A program made the position numbers and the translations under genes. Positions 3,954-33,110 of a stretch of 64,000 nt of DNA are shown here, in pieces. The notes below the pieces were generated by a model, which saw only the letters and a list, made by a program, of their open reading frames with translations, was not told where the DNA came from and did no database searches. This DNA is from Bacteroidales bacterium (lineage in GTDB: Bacteria > Bacteroidota > Bacteroidia > Bacteroidales > UBA1402). Numbering within the stretch: position 1 is the first letter of the stretch; the number at the start of each line of letters is the position of its first letter. Where the stretch lies: contig JAFODP010000017.1 in assembly GCA_017380635.1 (NCBI GenBank), positions 124,001 to 188,000 on the forward strand, in the 5' to 3' direction.

Positions 3954-4005
3954 AAAAAAGAGCGGAAAAACATCCTTTTTCGTGAATGTCTCTCCGCCCC
4001 TCTTG
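3954..4005 (-). terminator. Terminator of the FAS1/SusCD operon
   Basis: Read on the minus strand just after the last SusD gene, an outer stem (AAGAGGGGCGGA with TCCGCTCTT, containing a small bulge) encloses an inner stem ACATTC/GGATGT. The structure runs into TTTTTT. It lies between the SusD stop and the V-ATPase promoter and separates the two operons. Confidence 0.65.
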
Positions 4006-4021
4006 TTTATTTCATCATACT

Positions 4022-5791
4022 TTATTCAGCTGGCTGATGAGGATAAGGGATAAACCAATCTTCTACGCTCTTGCTTGCAAATTCTCCGGCACGTTCGGGA
4101 AATTTCTTAGCCAAGGCATCTGCGATATAATTGGGCGCATCCGGGTGATTGGTGTAGCGCAACAAATCGTGGAAACGGTTGCCCTTGAAAGCGGTTTCCA
4201 AAGCACATTCTTCCAACAATACCTTTTCTACGAACAAGATAGAGTCGTTCAAATTAGGATTGGCATTTTCGAAGAAGAAGCCCACTCTGGTTGAAACACC
4301 CTGACCACGAGTACGGGTACCCACATTAAACAAGAAGACCTGATCGCTCCATTTTTCTACCAAAGCGCTATCCAATTCCCAAGAGCTCACTTTCAAGGAG
4401 TCTCTCAAGGTGGCCAGATTCAAACCATTGTTGATTACAGCCAAAGCCACACTGGGTTTACCTGCACGGTTTATAGCTTCGGCATAGCGCAAATAAGCCA
4501 AGTTTGAAGACTGCAGATAGATTTGGTTTGACATTGCACTGCTCGATGTCAAATAAGTCGTGATGTACACAGAGCTTTTAGGTTCCTGGTAAATAGCCAA
4601 TTGTTCAAACTGCTTCATTTCGGTAGCAGACATACCTTCGGTAGACAGAGTTTCCATGTTTTCTTCCACATACTTCATAGAACCCGTAATACCACGCAAG
4701 TCGCCGGTAGCAGCAATATTCACACGATTACCTTGAGCATCTTCGCCCTGATGCAGATAAGGCTGCTGGGCAAAGAATTGAATAGCATTTTCCGTAGGCT
4801 TTACACAATAATCGGTATAGGTATAACGATACATTTTCGACGCATTGAAACGACCATAATCATCGTTGATATAATACTCCATATTGGCCGTAGTTTCATT
4901 AAGATATTGCAAATCCCATTCATGTTTAATCGTATATCCATCCAAGAAATAGTTATTATAAGGATCGTCTTTCGAATAACCATTTATAGAAATAAGATTA
5001 GGTTCTTCGTACAAAAAAGATGAATTATCAACATCTACCACAGCAAGATTTTTATAAATATCCTGATAATACATCTCGGCTGCTTGCGTATACATACCCT
5101 TCCACAAATAGATTTCTCCCAGAATATAATACATAGAAGGAATCAACTTGTCAATATTGCCGGAGGTTACCGGATAGGTAGGATAAGAAACACCAAGCAT
5201 AGGATACAAATCGGCGATAAGCAAATCGAACAAAGCTTCTCTGTCCTTGAAGTACAAATCCTTGTTAGAAGAAATTTCTTGCGATTGAGCCACCGTCAGA
5301 ATAGGAATTTCGTAGTAGAAAGCACCATTGTAGTTGAGCGCCATCTGCAAATAGGTCCAGGCACGGATAGCCTTGGCAGCAGCCACTTCGCGAAGCATGG
5401 TCAACTCACCTTGCACCACAATGCTGGTATCCATATTCTGAATCAGATAATTACAGTTGTTGATAACGGCATAATAATTGCTCAGATTCAGATATTCGTT
5501 GTCCGTATCACTGTAATCCAATTGATTCAAAGCAATCAAATCGTTGGTGGTATTGTGGGTAACATCCATCAAATCGCCACGCAATTCGCCCAACAACACA
5601 TATTGATCGCCCAATTTCTGAAACTTGGAAAGTATACCTACCAAAGAGAATACAGAGTCGTTAGGAGAATCCAAGCGGTTGTTGTCGGCATACACATAGC
5701 GGTCGGATTCCACATACATCATCTTTTCGCAAGAAGAGAAGCCGACCAGCATGGTCATCATTAAAACTAATACTATATTAAACTGTTTCAT
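4022..5791 (-). CDS. RagB/SusD family outer-membrane lipoprotein
   Basis: This 589-residue SusD-like surface lipoprotein is the last gene of the six-gene operon. The signal peptide ends in a lipobox LVGFSSC with the acylated cysteine at residue 21, so the protein should sit on the outer face of the outer membrane and form the lid of its SusC partner. The body has the helical TPR-like SusD fold signature, with segments such as AAAKAIRAWTYLQMALNYNG near residue 130 and a C-terminal ECALETAFKGNRFHDLLRYT. It lies 18 bp after the 1059-residue SusC gene, its likely partner. The bound substrate is unknown. No hydrolase or protease in the operon hints at it. Confidence 0.93.
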   Translation of the reverse strand: MKQFNIVLVLMMTMLVGFSSCEKMMYVESDRYVYADNNRLDSPNDSVFSLVGILSKFQKLGDQYVLLGELRGDLMDVTHNTTNDLIALNQLDYSDTDNEYLNLSNYYAVINNCNYLIQNMDTSIVVQGELTMLREVAAAKAIRAWTYLQMALNYNGAFYYEIPILTVAQSQEISSNKDLYFKDREALFDLLIADLYPMLGVSYPTYPVTSGNIDKLIPSMYYILGEIYLWKGMYTQAAEMYYQDIYKNLAVVDVDNSSFLYEEPNLISINGYSKDDPYNNYFLDGYTIKHEWDLQYLNETTANMEYYINDDYGRFNASKMYRYTYTDYCVKPTENAIQFFAQQPYLHQGEDAQGNRVNIAATGDLRGITGSMKYVEENMETLSTEGMSATEMKQFEQLAIYQEPKSSVYITTYLTSSSAMSNQIYLQSSNLAYLRYAEAINRAGKPSVALAVINNGLNLATLRDSLKVSSWELDSALVEKWSDQVFLFNVGTRTRGQGVSTRVGFFFENANPNLNDSILFVEKVLLEECALETAFKGNRFHDLLRYTNHPDAPNYIADALAKKFPERAGEFASKSVEDWFIPYPHQPAE

Positions 5792-5809
5792 TTCAGTTGG
5801 ATTAAGCGA

Positions 5810-8800
5810 TTACAAATTAATTCTTACACCTACGGTATAGGAAGCACTCTGGGGCAACAAGCCGGTGTCGATACCTTGGTACAGCACATTGTTTGAAGCA
5901 GAACTTTCAGGATCGCAGCCCAAATAAGAACTCCAGGTCCACAAGTTGTTGGCAGAAGCCCAAACCGTCATCGCATTGATGAAAGGAATCTTATAAGGAA
6001 GATCCCACGACAGGCTTACATTCTTCAGGCGCAAGTAAGAAGCGTCTTCCACCCAACGTGAAGAGAAGCGTGCGTTACCCATGGGGTCGCCATATACCGC
6101 TCTGGGGATATTGGTTTCGTCGCCCGAACTTCTCCAACGGTTCAACACAGCGGTCGATTGGTTTTCGAAAGTCGACATCGATTCCAAAATACGACGTTGA
6201 TAGTTGTACACATCGTTACCCAAAGAATAACCCAAAGTTGCAGACAAGCTTACGTTCTTGTAAGAAAGGCTTGATGACAAAATACCGGTAAAGTCGGGAT
6301 TGGGATTACCGATAACTTGTTTATCCTTTTCGTCGATAATACCATCAGCCACAACATCTTCGAAGATAGCGTCACCGGGAGCAAAATAGCTGTAGGTACC
6401 GTTTTCGTTCAACACCTTCAAGTTGTTGTAAGCATCCACTTCGGCCTGATCTGAATAAACACCCAAGTATTTGTAACCGTAGAACTGAGCCACCGGACCA
6501 CCTTCGGCAGTAAGGATTTCAGCGTCGAAAGCGTTAGTGGTGTAGTTGCCATCGGCCAAAGCAATGATTTCGTTCTGGTTGTGTGCCACAGTAGCGGTAG
6601 CTTCCCAACGCCAGTTAGAGGTATTGAGCAAGCGAGCATTCATAGCCACTTCGAAACCGCGGTTGCGCAACGAACCATCATTAGCCCAATAGTTCTTAAA
6701 ACCTGATACTTCGCTCAACTGCTTCAAGCAAAGCAAATCTTTGGTATGATGATCGTATACATCGGCACTCATAGAGAAACGGTTGCCGAACAAAGACAAA
6801 TCGAAACCGAGGTTAGCCTTACGGGTGGTTTCCCACTTCAAGCCTTGGTTACCAATATTGGCCAAAACCAAACCATTAGCCTTGTTGTAGAAAGTTTCAG
6901 AAGAGAAATAAGAATAGGTTACATAGTCTTCCAACTTGTCGTTACCCACGAAACCAATACTGCTGCGCAGTTTCAACTGATCGATGGCAGTGACATCGGC
7001 CATGAAGTCTTCGGCAGAGAGCAACCAAGCACCCGACAATGAGGGGAAAACTGCCCAGTTGACACCAAAGAGTTTCAAAGCGCCTTTTTCAATATCGGTA
7101 CCGAAACGAGAGCAAGCTTCCATGGTAACGTTAGCTGAAAGGAAATATTTCTGCAAATAATTCCAATCGGCATTAGCATACCAAGCAATGTTCTTCAGAT
7201 TGATACTGGCACCATCCGTCACTTTGCGTTTCAAATTACCCGACACATCCACCTGAGTATCGTTGGGCGTATTGTAACCGGCCACATAATCCCAAACCTT
7301 GTTATTGAGCAAGAAACGGAAACCACCGGTGGCAGACAAAGCATGATCGCCAAAGGCACGACGATAGTTCAGGTTGCTTTCCAAATGGGTGCGGATTTCA
7401 CGCAAGTTCTGAGCCTTGGCTTCTGATGTATAAGAAGCGAATGTACCATCTTCTTTATACACAACTTCAGGAGCAACCCCCTGGCTGGGCGTAAAGTAAG
7501 ATTCGAACACTTTATTCAAGGTATAAGCAGCCACGGCATTGAAAGCGAAATGATCGTTGATTTGCCACTTAGGCTTAGCCACAGCGGTAAAGTTGGTCAT
7601 ATCGGTCACCTGTTGAGCCAAAGACATAATAGCAGCCGGGTTGTTGATAGCCAAATCGTCGTAGGTTTCCAAGTTGTTGGTCAAGGTCTTGGTCAGATAC
7701 GAATATTGATAAGGGGCAAACATCGGCGATTTTACAGCGGCCAAATAAGTAGGCGACGTACGCGAAGTCATACCGTCGTTGAACAAGTCGTTGTTGATAC
7801 TGCTGATAGAGAAGTCTACCACAGAAGTAATGTTCTTGGCAATATTCATATCAGAGTTGAAACGGAAACTGATGTGCGAAGTGTTGGTACCTTCTACCAC
7901 ACCGCTGTTGTTTGAATAGCCAACAGACAAAGCATACATACCACGGTCGTCACCACCGGTAGCGCGAGCACTATAAGATTGGTTGAAACCATTGCGATAG
8001 ATATCTTTACCCCAATCGGTATTGTTGTGGTATTTCAGATAATACACATAGTTTTCGTTTTCGTTGAACATCGGCATGGCGTTCACATCGATGGGAGAAA
8101 ACAAGGTATTCTTGTAGAGTTCCGAGATGAGCAAACGGCTTTCGGCCGTATTCAAGGTAGGAATTCTGTTGGGTTCCATGGTCTGACCCATAGCCACATC
8201 GGCAACAATCTTGGTGGCCATAGAATGACCGCGCTTGGTTTCAATCAGAATAACACCATTGGCAGCTTTCGAACCATACAAAGAAGTAGCATCCTTGATA
8301 ACGGTGATATTTTCGATATCGTAGAGCGGAATATGGTTCAAGAAATTGTGATAGAAACCGGCATGCAAAGATTCCAAATCGTTGTACGATTCCATGATAA
8401 TACCATCCACAATAACCAGAGGTTGAGAATTGGTATTGATAGAGTTGATACCACGGATATACATCACCGAACCGATACCATCCTTACCGGAACGTTGGGT
8501 AGAGCGAACGGTACCCATCTGGTTCTGAATAAGTTGATCGATGGTGTATTGAGGAGCAATCTTCTGCAGATTTTCCAATTGTGAATAGGCAGATCCTTCC
8601 GAAACTAGTTCGTCGTTTACCAGGGCATATTCGAGGGGCGAACCATAAGGCTTGCTGAATGTATTGCTCGACAAAGCAACATCCACGCGCGCACGACCTC
8701 TCCATTCGATAACACGGGTATCATAGCCGGGAGCCGATACGGTGAAATACGAAGTAGGTTGTTTAATACGCAATTTGTACATACCCTTTTCGTTGGTAAA

Positions 8801-8989
8801 CACGGCCACATCATTCATCTTGATGGTAGCACCCAATACCACTGAATCGGTAGCTTGGTCGAAAACACGACCTTCAATCCAAGTATATTCGCTATTGTCC
8901 TGAGCCTGAGCTTGGGCCTCAACAGAGAAGATACTTACAAGTACGGTAGCCACGAGGGCTAAGGCTTTGATATAGTTTTTCATAATCAT
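5810..8989 (-). CDS. SusC/RagA family TonB-linked outer-membrane transporter
   Basis: This 1059-residue SusC-type transporter takes up ligands through the outer membrane using TonB energy. After a signal peptide ending near SVEAQAQAQ comes a carboxypeptidase-regulatory-like beta-sandwich (about residues 36-108). A plug domain follows with the hallmark VMYIRGINSINTNSQPLVIV and VDGIIM, then a 22-strand-type barrel ending in an aromatic-poor but typical VGVRINL terminus. There is no STN domain, so it is not expected to signal to an anti-sigma factor. The start could be the ATG at 8989 (MIMKNYIK) or at 8983 (MKNYIK). It lies 18 bp after a FAS1 gene and 18 bp before its SusD partner. Confidence 0.94.
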   Translation of the reverse strand: MIMKNYIKALALVATVLVSIFSVEAQAQAQDNSEYTWIEGRVFDQATDSVVLGATIKMNDVAVFTNEKGMYKLRIKQPTSYFTVSAPGYDTRVIEWRGRARVDVALSSNTFSKPYGSPLEYALVNDELVSEGSAYSQLENLQKIAPQYTIDQLIQNQMGTVRSTQRSGKDGIGSVMYIRGINSINTNSQPLVIVDGIIMESYNDLESLHAGFYHNFLNHIPLYDIENITVIKDATSLYGSKAANGVILIETKRGHSMATKIVADVAMGQTMEPNRIPTLNTAESRLLISELYKNTLFSPIDVNAMPMFNENENYVYYLKYHNNTDWGKDIYRNGFNQSYSARATGGDDRGMYALSVGYSNNSGVVEGTNTSHISFRFNSDMNIAKNITSVVDFSISSINNDLFNDGMTSRTSPTYLAAVKSPMFAPYQYSYLTKTLTNNLETYDDLAINNPAAIMSLAQQVTDMTNFTAVAKPKWQINDHFAFNAVAAYTLNKVFESYFTPSQGVAPEVVYKEDGTFASYTSEAKAQNLREIRTHLESNLNYRRAFGDHALSATGGFRFLLNNKVWDYVAGYNTPNDTQVDVSGNLKRKVTDGASINLKNIAWYANADWNYLQKYFLSANVTMEACSRFGTDIEKGALKLFGVNWAVFPSLSGAWLLSAEDFMADVTAIDQLKLRSSIGFVGNDKLEDYVTYSYFSSETFYNKANGLVLANIGNQGLKWETTRKANLGFDLSLFGNRFSMSADVYDHHTKDLLCLKQLSEVSGFKNYWANDGSLRNRGFEVAMNARLLNTSNWRWEATATVAHNQNEIIALADGNYTTNAFDAEILTAEGGPVAQFYGYKYLGVYSDQAEVDAYNNLKVLNENGTYSYFAPGDAIFEDVVADGIIDEKDKQVIGNPNPDFTGILSSSLSYKNVSLSATLGYSLGNDVYNYQRRILESMSTFENQSTAVLNRWRSSGDETNIPRAVYGDPMGNARFSSRWVEDASYLRLKNVSLSWDLPYKIPFINAMTVWASANNLWTWSSYLGCDPESSASNNVLYQGIDTGLLPQSASYTVGVRINL

Positions 8990-9007
8990 ACTTCTTTATT
9001 AGGCCGA

Positions 9008-10687
9008 TTAAAATACAGGTTCAAGAATGATACAGTCGATGTTCATGTTTCTTGAATAAACAGAATCTTCCAAAGGTTTGATATCCGAAATCACCTTCAC
9101 GGAAGCCAAAGATTGGGCAAAAGGTACGCGGATAGGACCATCGGCATTCACCAAAACAGTATCGGCATGCAAAGGATCGGTATAGTGGACATCACGATAT
9201 TCCAAGGTGTTCACACCGCCGTCTTCGTTCAAGTAAGAGAGCGCAAAACGAACAGGAACAGACTTAGCCTTGGGGTAAGGCCAACGATCGAATTTATTTT
9301 TATCGAAAACATGTTCGGGCAAGAACACCACCTTGATATTGTAACCCACATTACTCAATAATTGGCCTGTCAAATCGAATGCTATGGTAGGAGCGATTTG
9401 AGACGAACGGGCGAATACTTCCAGATAAGCACTATTGGAAATTACAGAATCCATCCAAGAAGTCTGCGTATCGCGACGGTTCAAGTTACGGGCATTCTCT
9501 TCCTGCTTCTGAATCAAAGTAGTCATAGAGTCAGGAAAATGCAAATAGGCATTGGGAACATAGTAGTGATAACCGAATACTTCCGCTTCCAATGTTATTG
9601 TCTGGCACCAATAAGTAGGATCCAATTTCAGGTGGTCGGTGGTATAGGCCACACCATTACTCAATTCGGTATAAGTGTCGTAGGCGCCCTCAAAATAGTA
9701 AGCCATATCCTTCACATAAGCGAAACCACCTTGTGTATAGGTCAAGCCCTTTTGTTGAATCTGCTCAGGAGTCATAGCACCCTTGAAAACCAAGTAGTCC
9801 ATCATAAATTTTTTAATCGATAGATCTCTGATAGAATCGGCCAAGGCTACATCCTTATACGGACCACCCTCTCTATCTATAGGAGTAATAAATTGCTCAT
9901 AATTTAAATAGGGATACAGGAGAGCATACATTTCATTCCAAGCCTTATTGGTAGGGAGAAGTGCTGTATAAGAAGCCTCTTCACTATTGAGTTCTCCCAA
10001 ATAGAGATCAGAAAGCAAAGGATTGGATTCAGTAAATACCGAGTCGTACACAGTTTCTCCTTCTTCGTTCACACCCAGCACCAAACTTTGAGCAGGATTA
10101 AATTCCCTGCTGTGTTGAGAAGCGATAAAGGCATTCAAAGAATCCAAATCTTTGGTAAACTGAATGTATTCGTAGATATTCTGGATGTAAGGCTCTACCC
10201 CACCAATTTTATGCAGAATACCATTCTTGTAAGCCACATCGCTGGCAGACATATCCAAAGCCTGTGCACCAAAATAATAAGCATCACCCTGACGATGAAA
10301 TTTCACACGCTTGTTGTCCATCAAACGAAGATTGAGATCCTTGTTGATGACATCGGTGGTAAGATAAGGATAACGCGACACGTGGTTCTTCAAAGTCTGC
10401 AAGAGATTTCTCTTGTCGCTAGCATCAAAGCCTTCCCAAGCCTCGTTGGTGGGCGCCCAGATGGTATAACTCTGCGAATGTCCGAAGGCATCCAAATAAT
10501 CCATTTCTTCCAGATAAGCCACAAATTGTGACAAATCGGGATCTGCCTGCAAAGCTTCTTTCAGTGTCTTGTCGATAACATTCACCGAGGAAGCATTGTA
10601 ATGGTCTTCCCATGCGGGATGCGTACACGACGACCACATACCCAAGGCCAAACCAAGACAGATAATTGATTTCAATAATTTTCTCAT
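9008..10687 (-). CDS. Fasciclin (FAS1) domain lipoprotein, 559 residues
   Basis: The signal peptide ends in GMWSSC with the lipid cysteine at residue 21, so this is a predicted outer-membrane lipoprotein. A first FAS1 domain covers about residues 36-175: the H1-like SYTIWAPTNEAWEGF is followed by the H2-like DVAYKNGILHKIGGV. A second, more divergent FAS1-like unit starts near residue 175 with YTALLPTNKAWNEMY. The last 150 residues look like a beta-rich domain. FAS1 domains mediate adhesion or ligand binding in many surface proteins. It lies between the upstream SusD and downstream SusC genes with 12- and 18-bp gaps, so it is probably made with them and may act as an accessory surface-binding protein. 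Function and ligand are not known. Confidence 0.85.
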   Translation of the reverse strand: MRKLLKSIICLGLALGMWSSCTHPAWEDHYNASSVNVIDKTLKEALQADPDLSQFVAYLEEMDYLDAFGHSQSYTIWAPTNEAWEGFDASDKRNLLQTLKNHVSRYPYLTTDVINKDLNLRLMDNKRVKFHRQGDAYYFGAQALDMSASDVAYKNGILHKIGGVEPYIQNIYEYIQFTKDLDSLNAFIASQHSREFNPAQSLVLGVNEEGETVYDSVFTESNPLLSDLYLGELNSEEASYTALLPTNKAWNEMYALLYPYLNYEQFITPIDREGGPYKDVALADSIRDLSIKKFMMDYLVFKGAMTPEQIQQKGLTYTQGGFAYVKDMAYYFEGAYDTYTELSNGVAYTTDHLKLDPTYWCQTITLEAEVFGYHYYVPNAYLHFPDSMTTLIQKQEENARNLNRRDTQTSWMDSVISNSAYLEVFARSSQIAPTIAFDLTGQLLSNVGYNIKVVFLPEHVFDKNKFDRWPYPKAKSVPVRFALSYLNEDGGVNTLEYRDVHYTDPLHADTVLVNADGPIRVPFAQSLASVKVISDIKPLEDSVYSRNMNIDCIILEPVF

Positions 10688-10699
10688 ATACTAATCTTT

Positions 10700-12334
10700 T
10701 TATTTATTCTCGTTCTTCTCGGTTGTTTCATCCATTTGATAGAAAGGATTTTGTACCAATTTATCGTTGTTTTCGATTTCTGTCTGATAAATAGGCATAT
10801 ACAGAGCATCCATGGTAGACATTTTGCTCAAAGCCACTTGTGAAGAAGAATTGGGGAAACGCTTGTCTTCTACTGCAGACACCGCATAATCGGCGGTATT
10901 GAAACGACGGGCCTGACGCAAAAGGTCGAACCAACGCTTACCTTCAAACATAAATTCTCTCTGACGTTCGTCCATCACCAATTCACGCATAAGGTCTACC
11001 GAGAAATATTCTTTGATGCTCAAAGAGTCGGTGGCACGCAAGTCCACATTGGCACGCATGTAGGTATTGTTCACCATATCGATGGCCGAGTTCAAATAGC
11101 TGTTGATATCGTCTTCGGTAGATTTGGTTGCAGCCAATTCCACCAAGGCTTCAGCTCTCATCAGGTAAATATCGGGCAAACGATAGAAAATCCATTCATA
11201 CTGTTTATCGGCAACATTACTATAAGTAGCGGCACTACCCGCTGCACTACCCACGATAGAATAACTACTAGCAACAAACTTAGGAATCTGATAGTAGGTA
11301 TAATCTCCATCGTTTGCGCTAGAGATACTGGTCAAATAGCGACGTTCGTCGGTAGAGTTAAACATGCCTCGATTGCACAACTTTTCAGAGGCTGAAATCT
11401 GAGGATCTTTAGCCTGATGTCCATACAGAGCAACAAAAGAGGCATCCATACCAGAAGGCTGAAAAGCAGTCGCAAATATCACTTCGTTAGTATATGCCGC
11501 ATGATGGGTAAACATCGGTAACAACAACGACGCATCGCCCAATTCATAATATCCGCTTCTGGCTGTCAGCATCTGCTTGTTGTTGTAAGCCAAGAATTCA
11601 TCGCAAACATCCACACATTCCTGATAACGGCCTTGCCACAAAAGGATATCGGCCAACAATGCACGGATAGATTGCTTGGTGAAACGGCTCTTGTTGTAAT
11701 CCTGACGATATGAACCGAAAGAAGACTGAGCATACATCAAGGCTTCTCTCAAATCGTCCACGACAACGTTCAACACAGAATCTGCAGAAGACTTAGCAAT
11801 GGCGAAACCATCGGTATCATCGATAGTAGGTTTCATCACCATGGGAACATCGCCAAAGGTTCTCACCAAGTAGAAATACGACATGGCACGGATGGCACGA
11901 GCTTCGGCACGATAGGCTTCCATATTGGAGGTTGACAAGTTCTTGTCTTCTTCCATCACCTGGGGTGCGTAATGAATAACCGTGTTACAGAGGTTGATGG
12001 TTTCGTAAAAAACCGCCCAATCGCAGAACGAGTTGGTTGCCTGAATGTTTACGTCCAAAATATCGATGAGATCGCTGGGCGTTTTATTGGTTTTTTCCAT
12101 GTTATCGGAACGGAGTTCGCCCCAAACGATGGCACGTTGCAAATATCTCTCATCCATCACAGACAGGTAGCAACTTGCCAAGACAGACTCGATATCGTCG
12201 GCCGATTTCCAATAATCTTCCAACAATGTTTCGCCTTCAGGATAGAGTTCCAACCACTCTGAGCAAGAAGCCATCATCAATGTAGCCATCACCACCAGCG
12301 TGGCTACCTTTATTTTATTATAGATCTTTTTCAT
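10700..12334 (-). CDS. RagB/SusD family outer-membrane lipoprotein
   Basis: This 544-residue SusD-like lipoprotein is the first of two in the operon. The lipobox LMMASC puts the lipid cysteine at residue 24, and the mature start SEWLELYPEGETLLEDYWKS is the classic SusD N-terminus. The region YRAEARAIRAMSYFYLVRTF near residue 140 and the C-terminal ELVMDERQREFMFEGKRWFD are strong family signatures. It lies 12 bp behind the 1094-residue SusC gene, with which it should form the transporter and lid complex. It is only distantly similar to the second SusD in this operon, which suggests two different ligands or an old duplication. The substrate is unknown. Confidence 0.96.
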   Translation of the reverse strand: MKKIYNKIKVATLVVMATLMMASCSEWLELYPEGETLLEDYWKSADDIESVLASCYLSVMDERYLQRAIVWGELRSDNMEKTNKTPSDLIDILDVNIQATNSFCDWAVFYETINLCNTVIHYAPQVMEEDKNLSTSNMEAYRAEARAIRAMSYFYLVRTFGDVPMVMKPTIDDTDGFAIAKSSADSVLNVVVDDLREALMYAQSSFGSYRQDYNKSRFTKQSIRALLADILLWQGRYQECVDVCDEFLAYNNKQMLTARSGYYELGDASLLLPMFTHHAAYTNEVIFATAFQPSGMDASFVALYGHQAKDPQISASEKLCNRGMFNSTDERRYLTSISSANDGDYTYYQIPKFVASSYSIVGSAAGSAATYSNVADKQYEWIFYRLPDIYLMRAEALVELAATKSTEDDINSYLNSAIDMVNNTYMRANVDLRATDSLSIKEYFSVDLMRELVMDERQREFMFEGKRWFDLLRQARRFNTADYAVSAVEDKRFPNSSSQVALSKMSTMDALYMPIYQTEIENNDKLVQNPFYQMDETTEKNENK

Positions 12335-12346
12335 AATCTTATCTCA

Positions 12347-15300
12347 TTAGAAGCCTAATCTTAAGCGCAACATAATATCTTTAGAACGAGGCGTCTTAGC
12401 ACCGTCGGTAGCCACAGACATACCACCGTAACCTACTTCGGGGTCAACACCGGTATATCTGGTAAGACAAGCGATGTTCTGGAATGACAGATACAAACTT
12501 GCGGTGTTCAATTTCACAGGTTTCAACAATTCCTTAGGCAAAGAGTAGTTGATGGTGAGGTATTTGAAACGCAAGAAAGAAGCATCTTCCACATAGCGGT
12601 CGCTACCCAACCAGTTGTAACCATAGTTGTACAAAGCACGAGGCATTTCGGTGACGTCACCTTCTTTACGCCAACGCCAGTTTACAGCAACGCTCTGGTT
12701 GTCGTTGGTGTACATGTTTTCTGCTTCCATACGGGCTCTGTTCACCACCTTGTTACCGATACGATAGTTGAAGAAGGTATTTACAGAGAAGCCTTTACCG
12801 AAACGGAAAGTGAAACCGAAACCACCATTCACCTTAGGCAATGAGTTACCCAAGTACACGATATCCAATTCGTCGATGCTACCATCGTGGTTGATATCTT
12901 CATAAATAGCGTCACCACCCTTGAATTCGTAAGCAGAAGAGGTGCCATAAGCGAAGTACATCGGCTTGGTATTACCCTGTGCATCGAAGATAGGATTACC
13001 ATTGGCATCGCGAACGATAGGACAAGTGGCATCGGGACGAGAAGGATCGTATTCGTTGTATTGGTATACACCTTTATACTTGAAGCCGTAGATAGAACCT
13101 ACAGGGTTACCTACCTGAATACGGGTCAGATAAGTACCATTCTTGTAGTCGAAATCTTTGTTGTAACGAGCCAGAATATCATCGCTCAATTCGATGATAA
13201 GGTTCTGGTTGTTAGAGAAGTTGAAGTTGGCATCCATACGGAAGAAATCGGTACGGATCACATCGCGGGCATTGAAGTTCAATTCCCAACCTCTGTTGTC
13301 CATCACACCACCATTACGGTTGGTCAAAGTAGCATAACCCGAGGTTGAAGAAATACCCAAATCGGCAAACAACAAGTCGGTAGTATGTTTGTAATAGTAG
13401 TTGAAATCGGTGCTGTACTTGCCTTCCAAGAATTCGATATCTACCCCGTAGTTGGTTTGGGTAGTCTTTTCCCAACGTAAGTTAGCCAAACGCATGTTCT
13501 TGGGCTTCACAGCAGGAATATCGATAAACATACCATTATTAGTATAGCGGCTCAAGTGAATGAAGGCTTCCTTAGGTTCGTTACCGGTAAGACCGATACT
13601 GAAACGGGGCGACAACATTGAGATAATGGGTCGGATAGGTTCGAAGAAGTTTTCATCACTCAAAATCCACTTGGTAGAAATAGCGGGGAAGAAACCAAAC
13701 TTAAAGTTGTCACCAAACTTAGAACTACCGGCACGGTTGATGGTACCACTCAAAATGTATTTACCGGCATAAGCGTAGTGGAAACCCATACCATAGTTCA
13801 AGCTACGGTTTTCGCTCGAAGAGGTCGACATCGAAGTAATCGTTGCATTGGCCGAAGCAGATGACAACCAAGACGAAGGCAAACCTGTGGCAGACAAACC
13901 GATAGAGTTGCTGGTGTTAGATGAAAGCGTAAACTTACCATTCAATTGCAAGCTATGGTTTTCGTTTTCAAATACAGGACGCCAGTTCAAATTGGCAGAG
14001 CTATACAGACCCATAGATTCCGATTCACTGCGTTGAGCATTGTTCACCTTGCCATCATTCCATACCAAATTAGCAGCTTCCTTGGGAAAGAAAGTGGTTC
14101 TTTGGTTGGCATTGATATCGAATGAAACGGTAGCACTCATTTTCAAAGAAGCATCGGTTTTGCTTCGATCGAAGAATTCATACGAGAGGTTGAACACAGG
14201 CGAAGTACGATAGCTCTTGGTGTTGTTCATAGCCAAATTGGCCACAGCCACAGGGTTGCTCAAGCCTTTCTGACCTGACTGCAAACCTGAATTTTCCAGA
14301 ATATGATAATAGGTATCGGTATTATTACCGTCTCTATCCTGGGTGTAAACACTCAAGTTAGGCATCTTCTTATAGGCTATAGACAAAAGGTCTTCGTAGT
14401 TCTTGTCGTTGTCACTGTAAGTGTATGAGAACTCAGAGCTGAAACGGATACGGTCTGACACGTTGTAGTCGATGCTTGAACGCATACTCAAACGATCCAG
14501 TTTCTGACCAATCACCGTACCGGTCTGCGTATAGTAAGCTACAGACACACGATAAGCCACTTTGTCGCCCCCACCAGAGATAGTGAGGTTGTTGTCGTGG
14601 GTATAGGCGATACGGCTGATTTTATCACGCCATTTGGTGTTGTTGTTATAGTTTTCGAATTCGGTAAAGTTGGTATCGTAGTTCAATTCGGGAACAGATG
14701 ATGAAGAGTTTTCCAATTTAGGATTGTAATAAGCTTGCTTCATCAACATGGTATAACCGTCACCATCGAGCAAATTCATACCCTTGGGCTGTTTAGCGCG
14801 GGTCATAGAGTAAGAATAAGTCACCTTGGTAGGACCGGCCTTACCACGTTTGGTAGTAATCATCAAAACACCATTGGCACCTTTGGCACCCCACATAGCC
14901 GTAGAAGCAGCGTCCTTCAATACCGTGATAGATTCGATATCGTCGGGGTTCACGTTGATCAACTGAGCATATTGTTCTTCGTTAGCGGTGGCAAAGTCGA
15001 AGCTATCGTCAATTTCCGTTTCGAAAGGAATGTCGTTGATAACGATAAGAGGTTCGGTATTGGCATTGATAGAAGTAGTACCACGTACACGCATTGACAT
15101 ACCTGAACCAGGTTCACCGGAAACGTTCACAATATCCAAACCGGCAATACGACCCTGCAAAGCATCGTCGATAGAAGCCACCTGAATACCATCGAATTCT
15201 TCGGCGCTGATCTTCTGCATAGCCATGGAAACTTCACGTTGCGGAATGTTGAAAGTACCGGTAGAGGTGGTTACCTTAGCGGTAATCACAGCGTCTTTCA

Positions 15301-15631
15301 AGGTAAGCGTCTGTTCGCTCATCACCGCATTGATAACACGCTTATTGCCAATTTCCAAATCCAAAGTTTCGAAACCGATATATTTGAATCTCAGTTTGTT
15401 CTTCGGATCGCTGATTTGCAATACATATTCACCATCGTAGTTGGTAATGGTCACATTGACGATACGGTTACTGGGATCCACTTCCGTTACGGTAACAGAA
15501 ATCAAAGTTTCTCCGGTAGCCTTATCGGTGACCTGTCCTCTTACGACGTTTGCATTATTCTGTGCAAGTGCCAACACATTGACACTCAGCATCAATAGCA
15601 TTAAAATGCCGTATTTCTTAAGTTTATTCAT
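12347..15631 (-). CDS. SusC/RagA family TonB-linked outer-membrane transporter
   Basis: This 1094-residue SusC-type transporter has a signal peptide ending near VLALAQ. A carboxypeptidase-regulatory-like domain follows (about residues 29-110, beginning VVRGQVTDKATGETLISVTV), then the plug with MSMRVRGTTSINANTEPLIV, then the barrel. The usual VDGxP motif of the plug is here INDIPF, a mild departure. Near the C-terminus the typical DASFLRFKYLTINYSLP segment occurs, and the chain ends MLRLRLGF. Its start overlaps the end of the large FAS1 gene by 8 bp, and the SusD partner follows after 12 bp. It imports an unknown ligand. The protein has no STN domain. Confidence 0.95.
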   Translation of the reverse strand: MNKLKKYGILMLLMLSVNVLALAQNNANVVRGQVTDKATGETLISVTVTEVDPSNRIVNVTITNYDGEYVLQISDPKNKLRFKYIGFETLDLEIGNKRVINAVMSEQTLTLKDAVITAKVTTSTGTFNIPQREVSMAMQKISAEEFDGIQVASIDDALQGRIAGLDIVNVSGEPGSGMSMRVRGTTSINANTEPLIVINDIPFETEIDDSFDFATANEEQYAQLINVNPDDIESITVLKDAASTAMWGAKGANGVLMITTKRGKAGPTKVTYSYSMTRAKQPKGMNLLDGDGYTMLMKQAYYNPKLENSSSSVPELNYDTNFTEFENYNNNTKWRDKISRIAYTHDNNLTISGGGDKVAYRVSVAYYTQTGTVIGQKLDRLSMRSSIDYNVSDRIRFSSEFSYTYSDNDKNYEDLLSIAYKKMPNLSVYTQDRDGNNTDTYYHILENSGLQSGQKGLSNPVAVANLAMNNTKSYRTSPVFNLSYEFFDRSKTDASLKMSATVSFDINANQRTTFFPKEAANLVWNDGKVNNAQRSESESMGLYSSANLNWRPVFENENHSLQLNGKFTLSSNTSNSIGLSATGLPSSWLSSASANATITSMSTSSSENRSLNYGMGFHYAYAGKYILSGTINRAGSSKFGDNFKFGFFPAISTKWILSDENFFEPIRPIISMLSPRFSIGLTGNEPKEAFIHLSRYTNNGMFIDIPAVKPKNMRLANLRWEKTTQTNYGVDIEFLEGKYSTDFNYYYKHTTDLLFADLGISSTSGYATLTNRNGGVMDNRGWELNFNARDVIRTDFFRMDANFNFSNNQNLIIELSDDILARYNKDFDYKNGTYLTRIQVGNPVGSIYGFKYKGVYQYNEYDPSRPDATCPIVRDANGNPIFDAQGNTKPMYFAYGTSSAYEFKGGDAIYEDINHDGSIDELDIVYLGNSLPKVNGGFGFTFRFGKGFSVNTFFNYRIGNKVVNRARMEAENMYTNDNQSVAVNWRWRKEGDVTEMPRALYNYGYNWLGSDRYVEDASFLRFKYLTINYSLPKELLKPVKLNTASLYLSFQNIACLTRYTGVDPEVGYGGMSVATDGAKTPRSKDIMLRLRLGF

Positions 15632-18600
15632 CGTCCTTCATTTTTAAACCAGTTACCCAATTGTAGCGGTGAACCGTACTATAACCAATCATAGGAGTTT
15701 TGCCATCGGTAGCCATAGTACCATCTTCGGCCCATTTACTTACTGCATAAGCTCTTACATGAACCACACTGTCGGTAGCAGCTACTTCAACAGCTTCGTT
15801 ACGGCTACCATCTGTATTATAATAAGGTGACAGACATGCCATAGAAGAGAATTTGATGCTCTTTCTTTCAACTTTTTCCAAGTCGTTCTTGATAGCGTAA
15901 GCAATCTTATTGTCTGCATCGGCATAAGTAGGATCGCTACCCAAAGCCCAGCAAAGACCAACTTCGTTGATAACCTTCTTGTCGCCGGAACCATTGTAAA
16001 CCACACCATCACCATTATCGGTAACAGCCAAGGGGTTGATGGTAATTCTAACAGCACCAGCATTGTTGGCATTGAACTTAAGATCGAGCACTGGAGGCTT
16101 CACCACGCTCAGATAATCGCCAATTTCGTGCAATACAGCGCGAGCCGACCAGTCGTTGGGAGAACCTTTCACGTCTTTCAAGCTCTTACCTACCAATACC
16201 ACGTCGCGCGTCATCAGGTTGTGATGACCTTCTGCATTGTTTACAGCAATAGAAGGACGATTGTTTTCAGCACCTGCAGCAGCTACACCGGGCACATTTT
16301 CCAAACCGTTCAAACGAGCCACCGTAGGCGTCAAAGTCATCGATGTACCATCCTGATCAACATAAATCGAATAGAAACGACCGGTAAGCGGGTTACGCAA
16401 AGCTGTTTCGAAACGAGCATTGTTATGGATGTCACCTTTTATATATACTGAATTATCCTGGATATGATATTTGATAAAATTCAGCACTTTTTCTTTCATC
16501 GCATTACGGGTAGATTCGTTGGCTGCTCTCATCTGATCGATGGTGGGCAAACCGGCGTCGAAAGCCTTCTGCATAGCTTCGTTGGTGGGAACATACACCG
16601 TATAATGGTAAGCCGAGAACAAGCTCACGTAACGATCCAAAGCATTGTATTGGGTGTTACCGCTACCGCTCACTGCAACAAAAAGACCCAAGTAATCCAT
16701 GTAATCCATGAAAGTCTTGAATTGCGACTGCGATTTCATCTTACCATAAACAGAAGTCAGAGGCTGTTGCATCACCTTGTCGATAAAAATCGTCTTACCA
16801 TTTTCAAAGTTGATCGTACTAATGGTTTTAGACGCATATTTATCTCCGAGAGGATTGCCATCACCCCACTTTTCGTTCTGTTCCATATTACCGCCACCAA
16901 AGAAAGTATAGTTGTCTACGCCATCGTAATCAACATAAATGAAACCTTTACCTTTGGTCTGATAATATTTCTGTTCGGGAGTTACTTCGCCCACGATGAT
17001 GTGATAGTCCATCGTTTCGTTCAGATAAACTTTCACCACTTCGTTGATCTTACCCAAATCGGTGGTAGTAAGCACGGCGTTTTCTACGGGAGAAATCATC
17101 GCACCACGCTGACCGGTCACCTGATCGTAGTAATAACGGGTAGCTTTTACCGTCTGGAAGTCTTTATCGTATTCGAAGTTCAACATTTCGGGCTGGTCGT
17201 AACCTTGAGCCGCGGGATAAATGAAGTTTTCGAAAGCGTTATCCAGAGGAACAATGAAAGTATACTTGGGCACAATACCGGGATTGTACACACTTTCCAT
17301 CGATTTCAGATAAACATCGAAGCCCATGCCGTTGGCAGAATTCACCGGATAGTTGAAAATACGAGTATCTTCACGCACCAATACAGGAGCCATTACGGAA
17401 GACAATTCCACGGGAGGGAACACTTTGTTGGTAACATAAACAGCACCATTGGTGGTAACTTTGGCACGGCTCACGTCTTCCTTGCTGATGAACATTTCGT
17501 CCAAAGACTCATTTTGCAAACCGGTAAACTTACTGGGCAAAGAAGCCAAGAAAGAACGCTGCATGTGTGCATTCAGGAAAAGCGCTGCAATATCGTTGGG
17601 AACGCTATCCCAAATACCATAACGTTGATACAGGAAGTTACCTCTGGCATTTTCGTCAGCAGAGAAATATTCATCCATAGCCTCGTCGCTGGGAACGAAC
17701 ATGGCAGCCATATCGAAATTGGCATTACCAGCGGTTTCATAACCATTCCAGTTGGGGTCGAACACCAAGAGTTCGTTAGAAGCCACTTGCTGCTGATAAG
17801 GATCGTGGTCGTTGGCAACGGCACCATTGGCAAGTTTAGACAAATAACGACGAACATAGATAGTATCGTGCAACTTGAAACCGTTGGCAGGTTCTTTGAA
17901 AGAATTATCCTTGATGTCGGTGTTCAAGGCAATATACTGGGTCGTTCTTTCAGCATCGGCATAAGGAGCAGAGAAACGATCCATCAAACGGTTGAACTTA
18001 GACAAATCTTCCTGGTTTCTGATGTATTGTGCCATATTCACTTCGGGAAGCAAAAGTTCGTCCAACACGTGGATATAACCGTTCTTACAAGTGATGTCGC
18101 GTACAATAACTTCTCTATCGAAGATATGAGCATCGCCCGTTTTGCGAGTCTTGCCATTGAAAAGAATAGAAAAATCCTCGTCGGTAATACCCTTTTCAGC
18201 CATTTGAGCTTCCAAGAATTGCACCAAGCGAGGAGACGTATTGTCATTCAGAACAAAAATGCCATTTTTTCTGAATTTCTCGAAATACTTACTGTTGTCG
18301 GGAATCATGTTTCCGGTTTCCTTCACCAGCAAATCGAGAGGGTCTAATGAAGTAGATCGGCGAAGCACTTGTCCGGGCACATAATCCACGCCATAGGACA
18401 AAGTTTCAATCAAGTTGGCTTCGTTCACCATCGAATACTCCATCAACTGATTCAGTTGCTCTTTTGTAAAATCCTCAAAACAAGTAACACCAGCTTTTTG
18501 GGCTTCTTCGCTGCTGAAATATCTCTCAAAAGCAGCGTCGTCGCACACGAACATGGTCTTACTACCGGTTCTACCCAGAACCTCATCATACTCACAAGCC

Positions 18601-18797
18601 TCGATCAATTTCACGAAATACGTAAAATCAGGCTTTCCATTGGCATCTCTATGCTCCTTTAGGTAGTCGTAGATACTAGCACCCAACCATTCCGGTTCTT
18701 GATCGTCAAGGATGTACGGATCCTTGCACGAACCGAAGATAAGTGCCACACCCACAAGCATTAAGGCAATGCCTCGCAAATGTTTAATCATATCCAT
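15624..18797 (-). CDS. Large fasciclin (FAS1) multi-domain lipoprotein, first gene of the SusCD operon
   Basis: The start at 18797 (MDMIKHLRG) is chosen because it gives a proper lipoprotein signal ending LIFGSC; the open frame extends up to 18839 but would bury the signal. The product is about 1057 residues. Several FAS1-like units can be followed: one near residues 30-240 (YDEVLGRTGSKTMFVCDDAAFERYF), further divergent units in the middle, and a clear one near residues 680-880 (YHYTVYVPTNEAMQKAF, then KYHIQDNSVYIKG). The last 150 residues resemble a fibronectin-like sandwich (EVGLCWALG and VHVRAYAVSK). It heads the operon and overlaps the SusC gene by 8 bp. A surface adhesin or ligand-binding role is inferred. 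Confidence 0.82.
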   Translation of the reverse strand: MDMIKHLRGIALMLVGVALIFGSCKDPYILDDQEPEWLGASIYDYLKEHRDANGKPDFTYFVKLIEACEYDEVLGRTGSKTMFVCDDAAFERYFSSEEAQKAGVTCFEDFTKEQLNQLMEYSMVNEANLIETLSYGVDYVPGQVLRRSTSLDPLDLLVKETGNMIPDNSKYFEKFRKNGIFVLNDNTSPRLVQFLEAQMAEKGITDEDFSILFNGKTRKTGDAHIFDREVIVRDITCKNGYIHVLDELLLPEVNMAQYIRNQEDLSKFNRLMDRFSAPYADAERTTQYIALNTDIKDNSFKEPANGFKLHDTIYVRRYLSKLANGAVANDHDPYQQQVASNELLVFDPNWNGYETAGNANFDMAAMFVPSDEAMDEYFSADENARGNFLYQRYGIWDSVPNDIAALFLNAHMQRSFLASLPSKFTGLQNESLDEMFISKEDVSRAKVTTNGAVYVTNKVFPPVELSSVMAPVLVREDTRIFNYPVNSANGMGFDVYLKSMESVYNPGIVPKYTFIVPLDNAFENFIYPAAQGYDQPEMLNFEYDKDFQTVKATRYYYDQVTGQRGAMISPVENAVLTTTDLGKINEVVKVYLNETMDYHIIVGEVTPEQKYYQTKGKGFIYVDYDGVDNYTFFGGGNMEQNEKWGDGNPLGDKYASKTISTINFENGKTIFIDKVMQQPLTSVYGKMKSQSQFKTFMDYMDYLGLFVAVSGSGNTQYNALDRYVSLFSAYHYTVYVPTNEAMQKAFDAGLPTIDQMRAANESTRNAMKEKVLNFIKYHIQDNSVYIKGDIHNNARFETALRNPLTGRFYSIYVDQDGTSMTLTPTVARLNGLENVPGVAAAGAENNRPSIAVNNAEGHHNLMTRDVVLVGKSLKDVKGSPNDWSARAVLHEIGDYLSVVKPPVLDLKFNANNAGAVRITINPLAVTDNGDGVVYNGSGDKKVINEVGLCWALGSDPTYADADNKIAYAIKNDLEKVERKSIKFSSMACLSPYYNTDGSRNEAVEVAATDSVVHVRAYAVSKWAEDGTMATDGKTPMIGYSTVHRYNWVTGLKMKDDE

Positions 18798-18844
18798 AAA
18801 ATTATTAACTTGAAATTTTCTCTTCAAAATCAAATTCAAATGCT

Positions 18845-18856: not shown

Positions 18857-18864
18857 CAAATGTA
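18857..18864 (-). promoter_or_regulatory. -7 element for the FAS1/SusCD operon
   Basis: On the minus strand this is TACATTTG. A TTAG, one mismatch from the -33 consensus TTTG, lies exactly 20 bp upstream at 18885-18888. It is the only promoter-like element seen for the 14.8-kb operon. Confidence 0.62.
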
Positions 18865-18948
18865 GTTATTTTTTTTCGCCCGACCTAACATTTAAAAGGC
18901 TTTTTTAAGACTTTGTTACAAATTTAACACACGCCTGTAACGGCCACT

Positions 18949-28150: not shown

Positions 28151-31100
28151 TTACTGGATGTCCAGACTCTCAATAGCCAAACCATTCAACGAGGGTGCCG
28201 ACAGCACCACTTTATAATCGCCGGCATTGATATACGAACCGGTGGTGGTACTCAGGGCTTTCCATCCTCTATCGTTGGGCGTGAAGGTCAAAACTGCATC
28301 TTTCAGCACGCGACCATCCGAAGCTAAGAGGCGCAGACGTATCATCAAATCTTCCGTAGAAAGATTACGATAGTTGATGCGCAAAGCATAAAGCTGGGCC
28401 AAGCCTACACTGAAATCGAACACCACGCAGTCGCGTTCCTCGGGCTGACAATAAGCCGCAGCCTGGGTTTGATTCATCGCCAAAGTATCGGCAAAGAAAT
28501 AACAATCTTTCTTGCGTTGGAAATCGGCCTTGTAAGCACCGGAAACTTGGGCTTTGGCAACAGGATAATTCACCTTAGTACGTGGATTCTTATCTTCGGG
28601 CAAACGTTCGGCAGGCATACGGGCTACGCGATCTTCGTCGGCCTTGCTCCACGACCATTGCGTCAGATAATCACGAATAAAGCTTGCACTGCGCTTTTCT
28701 GCCTGCAATTGAGCCACACGATTGGCCAATTGTGTCTCAATGCTATAAGAAGGCGCTTTGAAGGCCTTGACAACTGCTTTCGATTTAGTAGCAATAGCGA
28801 TAGCCGAAACGATGGCCTGACCACATGTCACTTCGGGAAAGTCGATCAAAAGAGAACCATCCTTCACTTCCACTTCTACCACTTGTTTCAAAGCTGCATC
28901 GTGACCGGCTTGCGACCAAATATCCAAATCGTCGATGAGGGTTTCGCCATTGAAAGCCACATCAAATACGCGCTGAGCCTGCAGATTGTTGGCGCCGCCG
29001 GTACCATGCCAAGGTTCAACGAAATAGAGTTCCACGCGATATGTACCATTGGGCAAAGCAAAACGATACTGCAACTGATGACGTCCAAAACGGAAATGTT
29101 GGAACAAGGCAGCATCTTTCGTACCATAAACCGGATCGTAACTGCGACGTTGCGAGGCCTGATAAGGATGCATATCCTCGAATTTTTCCGACCATGAACT
29201 GCTATACAACATATTGTCTTGTTGCCAAACCTGACGATAACTATCTACATATTCATCGCCACCGCAATTGATACGATACAGATAACGATAGCCTTTGGCC
29301 GCTTTTAGCAAATGTTTGTTGTAAGCAGTAGACTTCACATTCGAAGCTTTCAACACGCGCATCGAGAGTTTATCGTTGCCGGGAGCTTCGGGCAATGCCT
29401 GATAAAGCACCAAATCTTCGGCCACAGCCTTGCCATCGACATAAGCCACCGCCAAAAGCGTATTGTACTTCAACAACACTTGCGGCAAAATCAAATGCTC
29501 ACCCTTAACTTTCGGATTGACAGCTGTTCCCAGGTAATATTTTTCGTAAGCATCGTTGTAAAGCTTCACCGAGTCGCAGTTGCTGAACAAATGAATATCC
29601 ACCTTGTATTTAGGTTCGGTAAAACGTTCGGGCCAAGTATGCGAAACAATGTATACCATCGGATCGTCTTCGGCCTTGACATAATGCGAACGATACATAT
29701 AATAAATATCCAGAGGCTCTTCCCACGGCGACACCAAGCCTTTGTAATTGACGGGGCCCACCCTATCTATCACACGCCAAGCATCGTCCGGCTGACGACG
29801 ACCCGGATTATCATGACTGGTATAACACCACTGGAATTGTCCGCAAACACTGTCTTTAGCCTGTTCTGCCAAACGGACCTTCATTTCCATCAGAGAGCAG
29901 AAACGTTCTTCGGTGTAAGGACCATCTTGTTTGAAAGTAAAATCTTCTTCGTGCAAATCGAGCGTACGCCAAGCGCCGTATTCGCCATTGAGCAACTGAG
30001 AAGGCTTAGAAAGTTCCTGATCGTATTTTTCAGGACTACCGCTATAAGTTCCGCTCCAGTTCTGAATCACATTCCAATCGGTGCCGGTACCGCCATTACA
30101 AGTTGTGATAGCGCGCATATTGTGGGCCGTAGGGTCCATTTCACGAATAATCTCACAACATTCCTTGGCAAATTCGGTAGGCAAAGTACTTTCGTTCTGC
30201 AAGCCCCACAACACCACCGAAGGACAATTACGACGTTCTTTTACCCATTGACGCAACTGTGCTTTGAAATTGGCACGGAATTCCGGCGTATCGTACCAGA
30301 TATGCGCCGACAACTGCGTCCAGAACATCACGCCATATTTATCCCAATATTTTTGATAATCAAGATGATGTGGTTGATGCGCATCGCGGAAAGCATTGAA
30401 TCCGGCATTGAGCATCTGTTGCACGCGGGCTTCCACTTGCTGCGCCGAGAAAGCATGACCTTGTCCCAAAAGATGTTCATATTCGCACACACCATTCAAG
30501 AACAGCGACTCAGCATTGATGTAGAACCGTCCATCATTCGCATCCACTTCGCGAGCACCCTGCGGACCATAAATCATCGCTTTTTCGCCACGCGCAATGG
30601 CTTGCAGACGCTTCACCGGCCAAGAAATGCTACGAATACCGAAAGTGGTCGACAACTTATCTTCAGCGCCGCCATCCATCTTGACACGAGTTTGCAAACT
30701 ATACAAAGCCGGATTTGCATGGCTCCAAAGTTCTGCCTTGGGCATAGTCATAGAATCTTGCAAAATCAGCGTTGCACCGGCGGGAATATCCACTTGTCTG
30801 TCTGTGAATTGTTTATCGTTGATCTGAGCCTGAGGCGTGAACAAATCTTGCGACAAGGTAATGCGATGAGCTTTCGTATCGTAGTTTTTCACTTCGACAC
30901 TATAATAAATCTTATTGGCCGCATCGTTGTTCCAGACGTGCACACCGAAAGGCTCGATTCTAACTTTGGGCGTTGTTTCCAAAACCACGGGACGATAGAT
31001 GCCCAAAGGCTGCGAACCTTCACTGAACCCCCACTCAGAAGAACAACCACCACAAACACAAGGCATATCGGTAATCATATCGGGATGTTCGGCCGTCACT

Positions 31101-31522
31101 TCCAAATAATTGTCTTTTGCTTTGACAGCCTGCGTCACATCGAGCGTAAAGCTGACACGACCGCCCAAATGGCGACCCAAGTCATGACCATTCAAACGCA
31201 CATGAGCATAAGTACCAACACCTTCAAAACGAATAAAATAAGCTTGATCAGCTTGCCATTCGGCCGGCATATCGAAACGCGTGCTATACACCGCCGTTCC
31301 GTGCAAATTGCCATGCGTCAACTGACGATAACCATAATAGTCGTCCCAATTGTGAGGCAATTTCACGTCGATAGTGTCGAGCGAAGTGGGCTGCGTGTTG
31401 CTGGTCTTGCTCAGATAAGTGCGCCAATTTTGTTTATCCAAACTGATACTGGCACGTTGCGCTGAGAGGCTCAAACTCATACATAGGCCCAAAGCCAAAC
31501 AAGTTAAAGAATGAATCTTCAT
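28151..31522 (-). CDS. Exported GH2 family glycoside hydrolase with malectin-like domain
   Basis: This 1123-residue enzyme has a signal peptide ending LSLSAQ. The GH2 sugar-binding domain (residues 30-200, with LPHNWDDYYGYRQLTHGNLH), the Ig-like domain and the TIM barrel follow in order. In the barrel the acid/base is Glu444 in LQNES and the likely nucleophile Glu514 in LNGEYGAW. A malectin-like carbohydrate-binding domain starts near residue 755 with YRINCGGDEYVDSYRQVW. GH2 members are beta-galactosidases, beta-mannosidases or beta-glucuronidases; the exact activity is not decided here. It is the last gene of the GH31-symporter-GH2 operon, 18 bp after the symporter. No lipobox is seen, so it is probably periplasmic. 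Confidence 0.9.
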   Translation of the reverse strand: MKIHSLTCLALGLCMSLSLSAQRASISLDKQNWRTYLSKTSNTQPTSLDTIDVKLPHNWDDYYGYRQLTHGNLHGTAVYSTRFDMPAEWQADQAYFIRFEGVGTYAHVRLNGHDLGRHLGGRVSFTLDVTQAVKAKDNYLEVTAEHPDMITDMPCVCGGCSSEWGFSEGSQPLGIYRPVVLETTPKVRIEPFGVHVWNNDAANKIYYSVEVKNYDTKAHRITLSQDLFTPQAQINDKQFTDRQVDIPAGATLILQDSMTMPKAELWSHANPALYSLQTRVKMDGGAEDKLSTTFGIRSISWPVKRLQAIARGEKAMIYGPQGAREVDANDGRFYINAESLFLNGVCEYEHLLGQGHAFSAQQVEARVQQMLNAGFNAFRDAHQPHHLDYQKYWDKYGVMFWTQLSAHIWYDTPEFRANFKAQLRQWVKERRNCPSVVLWGLQNESTLPTEFAKECCEIIREMDPTAHNMRAITTCNGGTGTDWNVIQNWSGTYSGSPEKYDQELSKPSQLLNGEYGAWRTLDLHEEDFTFKQDGPYTEERFCSLMEMKVRLAEQAKDSVCGQFQWCYTSHDNPGRRQPDDAWRVIDRVGPVNYKGLVSPWEEPLDIYYMYRSHYVKAEDDPMVYIVSHTWPERFTEPKYKVDIHLFSNCDSVKLYNDAYEKYYLGTAVNPKVKGEHLILPQVLLKYNTLLAVAYVDGKAVAEDLVLYQALPEAPGNDKLSMRVLKASNVKSTAYNKHLLKAAKGYRYLYRINCGGDEYVDSYRQVWQQDNMLYSSSWSEKFEDMHPYQASQRRSYDPVYGTKDAALFQHFRFGRHQLQYRFALPNGTYRVELYFVEPWHGTGGANNLQAQRVFDVAFNGETLIDDLDIWSQAGHDAALKQVVEVEVKDGSLLIDFPEVTCGQAIVSAIAIATKSKAVVKAFKAPSYSIETQLANRVAQLQAEKRSASFIRDYLTQWSWSKADEDRVARMPAERLPEDKNPRTKVNYPVAKAQVSGAYKADFQRKKDCYFFADTLAMNQTQAAAYCQPEERDCVVFDFSVGLAQLYALRINYRNLSTEDLMIRLRLLASDGRVLKDAVLTFTPNDRGWKALSTTTGSYINAGDYKVVLSAPSLNGLAIESLDIQ

Positions 31523-31540
31523 CTCTTACAAAAATTGAAA

Positions 31541-33097: not shown

Positions 33098-33110
33098 AAT
33101 TAAATTTTTA

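Follow-up and report, generated by a model that had tools for sequence, protein, structure and literature searches.

The window studied here, that is the whole stretch of 64,000 nucleotides that was analyzed, carries six genes on its minus strand (18797-4022) encoding, in this order, a large FAS1 lipoprotein (FAS1-large, FL), SusC1, SusD1, a second FAS1 lipoprotein (F2), SusC2 and SusD2. We propose, with a probability of roughly 0.55, that they form a self-contained capture-and-import operon, in which the FAS1 proteins act as surface binders and the two SusCD pairs as importers, probably of pectic plant cell-wall oligosaccharides, the enzymes being encoded elsewhere. By sequence comparison, the operon is one form of an old two-transporter FAS1 module found in several genera, and from the evidence below we infer the FAS1-SusCD complex, its ligand and the supply of enzymes in trans. 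The gene order described in an earlier note on this DNA is confirmed, as all six open reading frames are present at the minus-strand coordinates below, and Pfam and NCBIfam agree with the family assignments, SusD2 being marginal. The features of the locus are the following:

18857..18888, minus strand: promoter-like block TTAGG-N19-TACATTTG, located 59 bp before the first ATG, in a form kept in the orthologues.
15624..18797, minus strand: FL, FAS1-large lipoprotein of 1057 aa (Pfam Fasciclin, 4.7e-21).
12347..15631, minus strand: SusC1, TonB-dependent outer-membrane transporter of 1094 aa (TIGR04056, 709 bits; Plug; CarbopepD_reg_2).
10700..12334, minus strand: SusD1, lipoprotein of 544 aa (SusD_RagB, 3.2e-29; SusD-like_3, 4.8e-14).
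9008..10687, minus strand: F2, FAS1 lipoprotein of 559 aa (Pfam Fasciclin, 3.7e-16; periostin by sequence, 5.9e-15).
5810..8989, minus strand: SusC2, TonB-dependent outer-membrane transporter of 1059 aa (TIGR04056, 608 bits).
4022..5791, minus strand: SusD2, divergent SusD lipoprotein of 589 aa (SusD_RagB, 21.7 bits versus a cut-off of 23.1).
3955..4004, minus strand: predicted intrinsic terminator hairpin ending the operon (-28.7 kcal/mol, z -7.3).

The genes are tightly packed with one overlap, as the earlier note had described (gaps of -8, 12, 12, 18 and 18 bp along the operon). Translation of FL most likely starts at ATG 18797, because the orthologues begin at the same MDM, TTG 18839 being no more than the point where the open frame begins. 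Upstream of FL lies a -7 box of the Bacteroidetes type (TACATTTG, 18864-18857), and visual inspection of the six other orthologous operons examined showed, ahead of each, TTAGG or TTAGA followed after 18-19 nt by TANNTTTG. We assume that this block functions as a promoter, given its likeness to the -33/-7 promoter form of Bacteroidetes. The usual -33 element in Bacteroidetes is TTTG, from which the TTAGG common to all seven orthologous operons departs, and this atypical element may point to an alternative sigma factor or an activator site. At the other end, none of 200 shuffled sequences was as stable as the terminator hairpin that follows SusD2 and has a T run behind it, and strong hairpins are also found 3' of SusD2 in the orthologous loci of two further genomes (G003 and G006). 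With the promoter-like block and the terminator at its ends, the unit therefore appears closed on both sides, between a divergent dnaG and, downstream, V-type ATPase genes.

The six-gene unit encodes neither an enzyme or protease nor a sigma/anti-sigma pair or regulator. CAZyme genes are absent inside and adjoining the operon in the window copy and the orthologues, and no regulator (SusR, HTCS or ECF sigma/anti-sigma) was seen within the unit in any of them. Compared with a canonical PUL, the operon thus has the susC-susD pair (two pairs, with a divergent SusD2) and lacks the linked CAZyme and the linked regulator. The closest CAZyme genes (GH2 and GH31) are found ~10 kb off, past dnaG and ftsH. 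A GH2-malectin protein, a sodium:solute symporter and a GH31 gene occupy positions 28151-35324 of the window; G003 and G006 have them as well, at ~10 kb past dnaG, and they could represent a partner cluster for sugar use.

Close relatives of FL are confined to the same Bacteroidales family (41 genomes searched). In G003 and G006, the complete six-gene operon is flanked by dnaG and the ATPase genes; G001, G004 and G005 have the same order next to dnaG, to the extent that their contigs were read, and in G010 the stretch read covers dnaG, FL and the beginning of SusC1. No inserted enzyme or regulator was found in any of these orthologous copies as read. The succession of dnaG, the operon and the V-type ATPase genes is kept in two genera of one family. 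Comparison of two congeners gives a dN/dS (NG86) of ~0.09-0.16 for the six operon genes, against 0.08 for dnaG; all six genes are therefore maintained by purifying selection. The window copy is best explained as a unit for transport only that was inherited vertically. The named matches come from metagenome assemblies of rumen, omasum and reticulum and from UBA genomes, mostly designated 'Bacteroidales bacterium', and judging by the habitat of these matches the uncultured organism of the window is probably rumen-dwelling as well.

The two transporter pairs are not copies of each other. SusC1 retains the plug and SusC2 the plug and the barrel (Pfam), and both match the full-length TIGR04056 family. 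In a tree of 42 SusC proteins, they belong to separate clades (SusC1, n=25; SusC2, n=12; SH-aLRT 100 each), and the five other SusC proteins of the genome fall between these. As the clades are separate across genomes, the two pairs are old and distinct. SusD1 and SusD2 also separate in their tree, with weak support for SusD1, and SusD2, which is marginal by Pfam, yet groups with the genes adjoining SusC2 in relatives (SusD2 clade, SH-aLRT 99). The repeated order had been taken in the earlier note to suggest a duplication of one FAS1-SusC-SusD triplet, though with SusD proteins that differ clearly; a recent tandem duplication is ruled out by the separate clades of SusC1 and SusC2.

We defined a twin FAS1-SusCD module as a succession of FL, SusC1, SusD1, one or two FAS1 genes, SusC2 and SusD2, in which SusC1 and SusC2 fall into different clades; the window operon shows both this gene order and the separation of clades. 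The window operon and its orthologues have a single middle FAS1 gene, versus mostly two in the sister modules of the same genome and in those found across the order. When 84,980 species genomes were scanned with an FL profile, 46 loci were returned, and the layout is conserved in Geofilum rubicundum, Paludibacter, Prevotella, Paraprevotella and rumen Bacteroidaceae assemblies, and in an even sample of the order FL is found at E < 1e-30 in 12 of 295 genomes. SusC1 lies directly 3' of nearly every FL for which the neighbor was seen, and a spacing of ~8-10 kb between SusC1 and SusC2 recurs through most of a set of 12 named genomes. The exception is a second FL in G006 (L055, G006:C7:98000-117900), which is located after a SusC2-SusD2 pair and before a 1457-aa hybrid two-component regulator, after which a full module starts; two modules seem to be joined there through the regulator.

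Three further loci of the window genome carry seven genes each (FL, SusC1, SusD1, FAS1a, FAS1b, SusC2 and SusD2) and adjoin PL1 pectate lyases (PF00544), CE8 pectinesterases (PF01095), a GH88-domain protein and pectate-lyase-like proteins. In this small, pectinase-rich genome, 8 of the 13 full-length SusC genes belong to the four modules. Six of its 17 PL1/CE8 matches are found within 15 kb of the modules (binomial P ~0.0015, to be taken as a guide only, since it concerns a single genome and the 15 kb limit was set after seeing the loci), whereas none of the 17 lies as near to any of the remaining five SusC genes, these SusC and PL1/CE8 counts being based on family searches. The GH28 genes of the genome do not cluster with the modules, which counts against a pectic ligand. 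Across the order, the neighbors of the modules include GH43, GH2, GH92, GH95, GH115, GH51, GH28 and GH3 families as well as hybrid two-component regulators (HTCS). The absence of enzymes and regulator claimed in the earlier note thus holds for the window copy and for every orthologue read, and fails for the sister modules, in this genome and in the order, which adjoin pectin or arabinan enzymes and HTCS. Among the findings that the note had named as evidence against its reading is a hydrolase or regulator conserved within this unit in relatives; such a case exists in part for the wider module family, where enzymes adjoin and differ from module to module, and not for the direct orthologues.

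Since its sister operons adjoin pectin-digesting enzymes, the window operon most likely imports plant cell-wall sugar fragments that are cut elsewhere. The nearest relatives of SusC1 beyond the orthologues do not belong to the pectate-lyase-linked sisters of the same genome, but to modules with mixed neighbors (GH43, GH95/GH92, LamG), so the ligand could also be arabinan, arabinoxylan or another plant glycan; the GH115 gene beside the module of one relative suggests glucuronoxylan. An assignment of the ligand through these nearest relatives was abandoned, as their enzyme neighbors are mixed.

The alternative that survives best, though we consider it unlikely, is that the operon encodes a scavenging importer for non-pectic substrates, its SusCD pairs being constitutive, enzyme-free transporters of peptides, glycoprotein fragments or another general nutrient, and the FAS1 proteins accessory binders as in RagAB or BtuB-BtuG. 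An operon devoid of enzymes and regulator, vertically inherited at a housekeeping locus (between dnaG and the V-type ATPase genes) and preceded by a conserved promoter-like block with its TTAGG -33 element and no linked regulator, would fit such a role, and complexes of TonB-dependent transporters with lipoproteins are known for a non-glycan, vitamin B12 (PMC10404256). Against it, all six genes have relatives in modules that adjoin plant cell-wall CAZymes, and a CBM-like domain is predicted in the model of F2.

FAS1 domains are known as adhesion and ligand-binding modules. The PF02469 score exceeds the cut-off in both FL and F2, and the fold agrees (Foldseek matches to TGFBIp and periostin). 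For the FL model (pLDDT 82.6), Foldseek ranks highest two proteins with four FAS1 domains, periostin and TGFBIp (7.8e-22, ~880 columns aligned), followed by a weaker and smaller match to DUF3823 of Bacteroides ovatus. Pfam detects two Fasciclin stretches in FL, and we infer from the Foldseek alignment and the secondary structure that the protein would consist of about four FAS1 units and a C-terminal beta domain. The F2 model (pLDDT 81.7) displays two FAS1 domains, for which Foldseek finds TGFBIp, periostin and fasciclin I, followed by a C-terminal beta-sandwich. F2 also matches CBM22 domains (E ~3e-5, target TM-score 0.48-0.58, ~160-170 columns, 8-15% identity); judged by their fold, these matches must belong to the modelled beta-sandwich, which resembles CBM22 by fold alone, with weak likeness in sequence and in a fold that is common. 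The lipobox cysteine at the end of the signal peptide is invariant among the homologues aligned (25 for FL; 24 for F2, Cys21), and on this basis both should be lipoproteins, presumably located at the surface. Together with the FAS1-FAS1-CBM-like model of F2 and the fixed place of both proteins in SusCD modules, the invariant cysteine supports the earlier suggestion that FAS1 proteins may take the place of SusE/F-type binders.

The same proteins might instead fasten the cell to plant walls, microbes or host surfaces in the manner of eukaryotic fasciclins, uptake being secondary. Apart from what is generally known of FAS1 domains, this agrees with periostin and TGFBIp being the best structural matches; yet we regard it as improbable, since the FAS1 genes are kept in fixed order with two complete SusCD pairs, both transporters match TIGR04056 over its full length, with their plug (SusC1) or plug and barrel (SusC2), and evolve under purifying selection, and a lone FAS1 protein of this genome is located in a hydrolase operon (see below). 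That the operon is a utilization locus that lost its enzymes and is drifting, as a comparison of its six genes with the seven genes and enzymes of the sister modules could indicate, is largely refuted and rejected here on dN/dS and retained synteny, the six genes being intact, with low dN/dS, in a terminator-closed layout kept in two genera.

If the operon is indeed devoted to capture and import, the FAS1 lipoproteins would retain a plant cell-wall polymer, or larger pieces of it, on the cell surface, as glycan-binding scaffolds in the role of SusE/F. FL would be the partner of SusC1D1, and F2, with its FAS1 and CBM-like domains, that of SusC2D2, so that each SusCD would be a lid-and-barrel importer headed by its own FAS1 gene. 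The two importers would probably take different oligosaccharides, or two size classes, out of one complex and most likely pectic polymer. The cutting enzymes would be supplied in trans by the sister modules, which have theirs encoded alongside, and by pectinase genes scattered elsewhere in the genome.

Complexes of SusCD with surface glycan-binding proteins have been solved for the levan and dextran utilisomes (PMC7618045). These SusE/F utilisomes resemble the proposed complex in their TonB-dependent barrel, their SusD lid and lipoproteins from the same operon, but have Ig or starch-binding domains where the window operon has FAS1 binders, two SusCD pairs and no surface endo-hydrolase. Pectin PULs with several SusCD pairs are known from Bacteroides xylanisolvens (PUL 50/51; PMC4769552); they share with the window operon the presence of more than one pair and, unlike it, have CAZymes and HTCS, the link here being between the sister modules and PL1, CE8 and GH88-type enzymes. 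PUL 68 of the same species, which responds to citrus pectin with strong induction (PMC4769552), is enzyme-free, with one SusCD pair (versus two here) and three unknown genes, and has, like the window operon, no identified regulator. With fasciclin proteins (PF02469) such as periostin and TGFBIp, the window proteins share FAS1 domains by sequence and modelled fold, but are bacterial lipoproteins tied to SusCD pairs and have an extra C-terminal beta-sandwich.

In the open literature searched (titles, abstracts and term counts, most subscription papers lying outside it), FAS1 or fasciclin is mentioned together with SusCD, TonB, Bacteroidetes or PULs only incidentally, and FAS1 lipoproteins beside SusCD genes appear to have no role assigned there. 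The parts are all of known kinds; the two-SusCD FAS1 module, its order-wide recurrence and its conserved enzyme-free version seem undescribed in that literature. More tentatively, and with somewhat less than even odds, we see in it a recurrent Bacteroidales machine that has not been described before, a two-importer FAS1 utilisome for pectic glycans, of which the enzyme-free version would import the products of other loci or of neighboring organisms. The twin module is found repeatedly across Bacteroidales and accounts for most SusC transporters of the window genome, and if its FAS1 proteins bind glycans, a common 'unknown' would become a class of surface glycan-binding proteins open to testing. 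As a conserved enzyme-free unit, the window copy would offer a clean case to separate uptake from digestion and to ask who uses shared pectin products in the rumen.

The lone FAS1 lipoprotein of this genome (672 aa) heads an operon with two GH78 genes, an apiosidase-like gene, GH127, GH2 and GH106 (L159:3-17253; G000:C49:212000-229253), a set that we take to fit rhamnogalacturonan-II and that favors the pectic reading of the window operon, and no SusCD genes were seen in the stretch read (L159:3-17253). This operon lies on the same contig as the window operon, and a co-occurrence test of a tie between the two was dropped: of the 13 genomes of the family, 12 have apiosidase-like genes, whether or not they also carry the orphan operon, which leaves co-occurrence without discriminating power. 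Finally, secreted pectate-lyase-like proteins with an FPGAEG or FPTAEG N-terminus are encoded beside the sister modules (L035:7824-11261, L038:1121-2794, L039:9995-11449 and L039:13545-15728); they have no Pfam pectate-lyase match and are possibly undescribed lyases.
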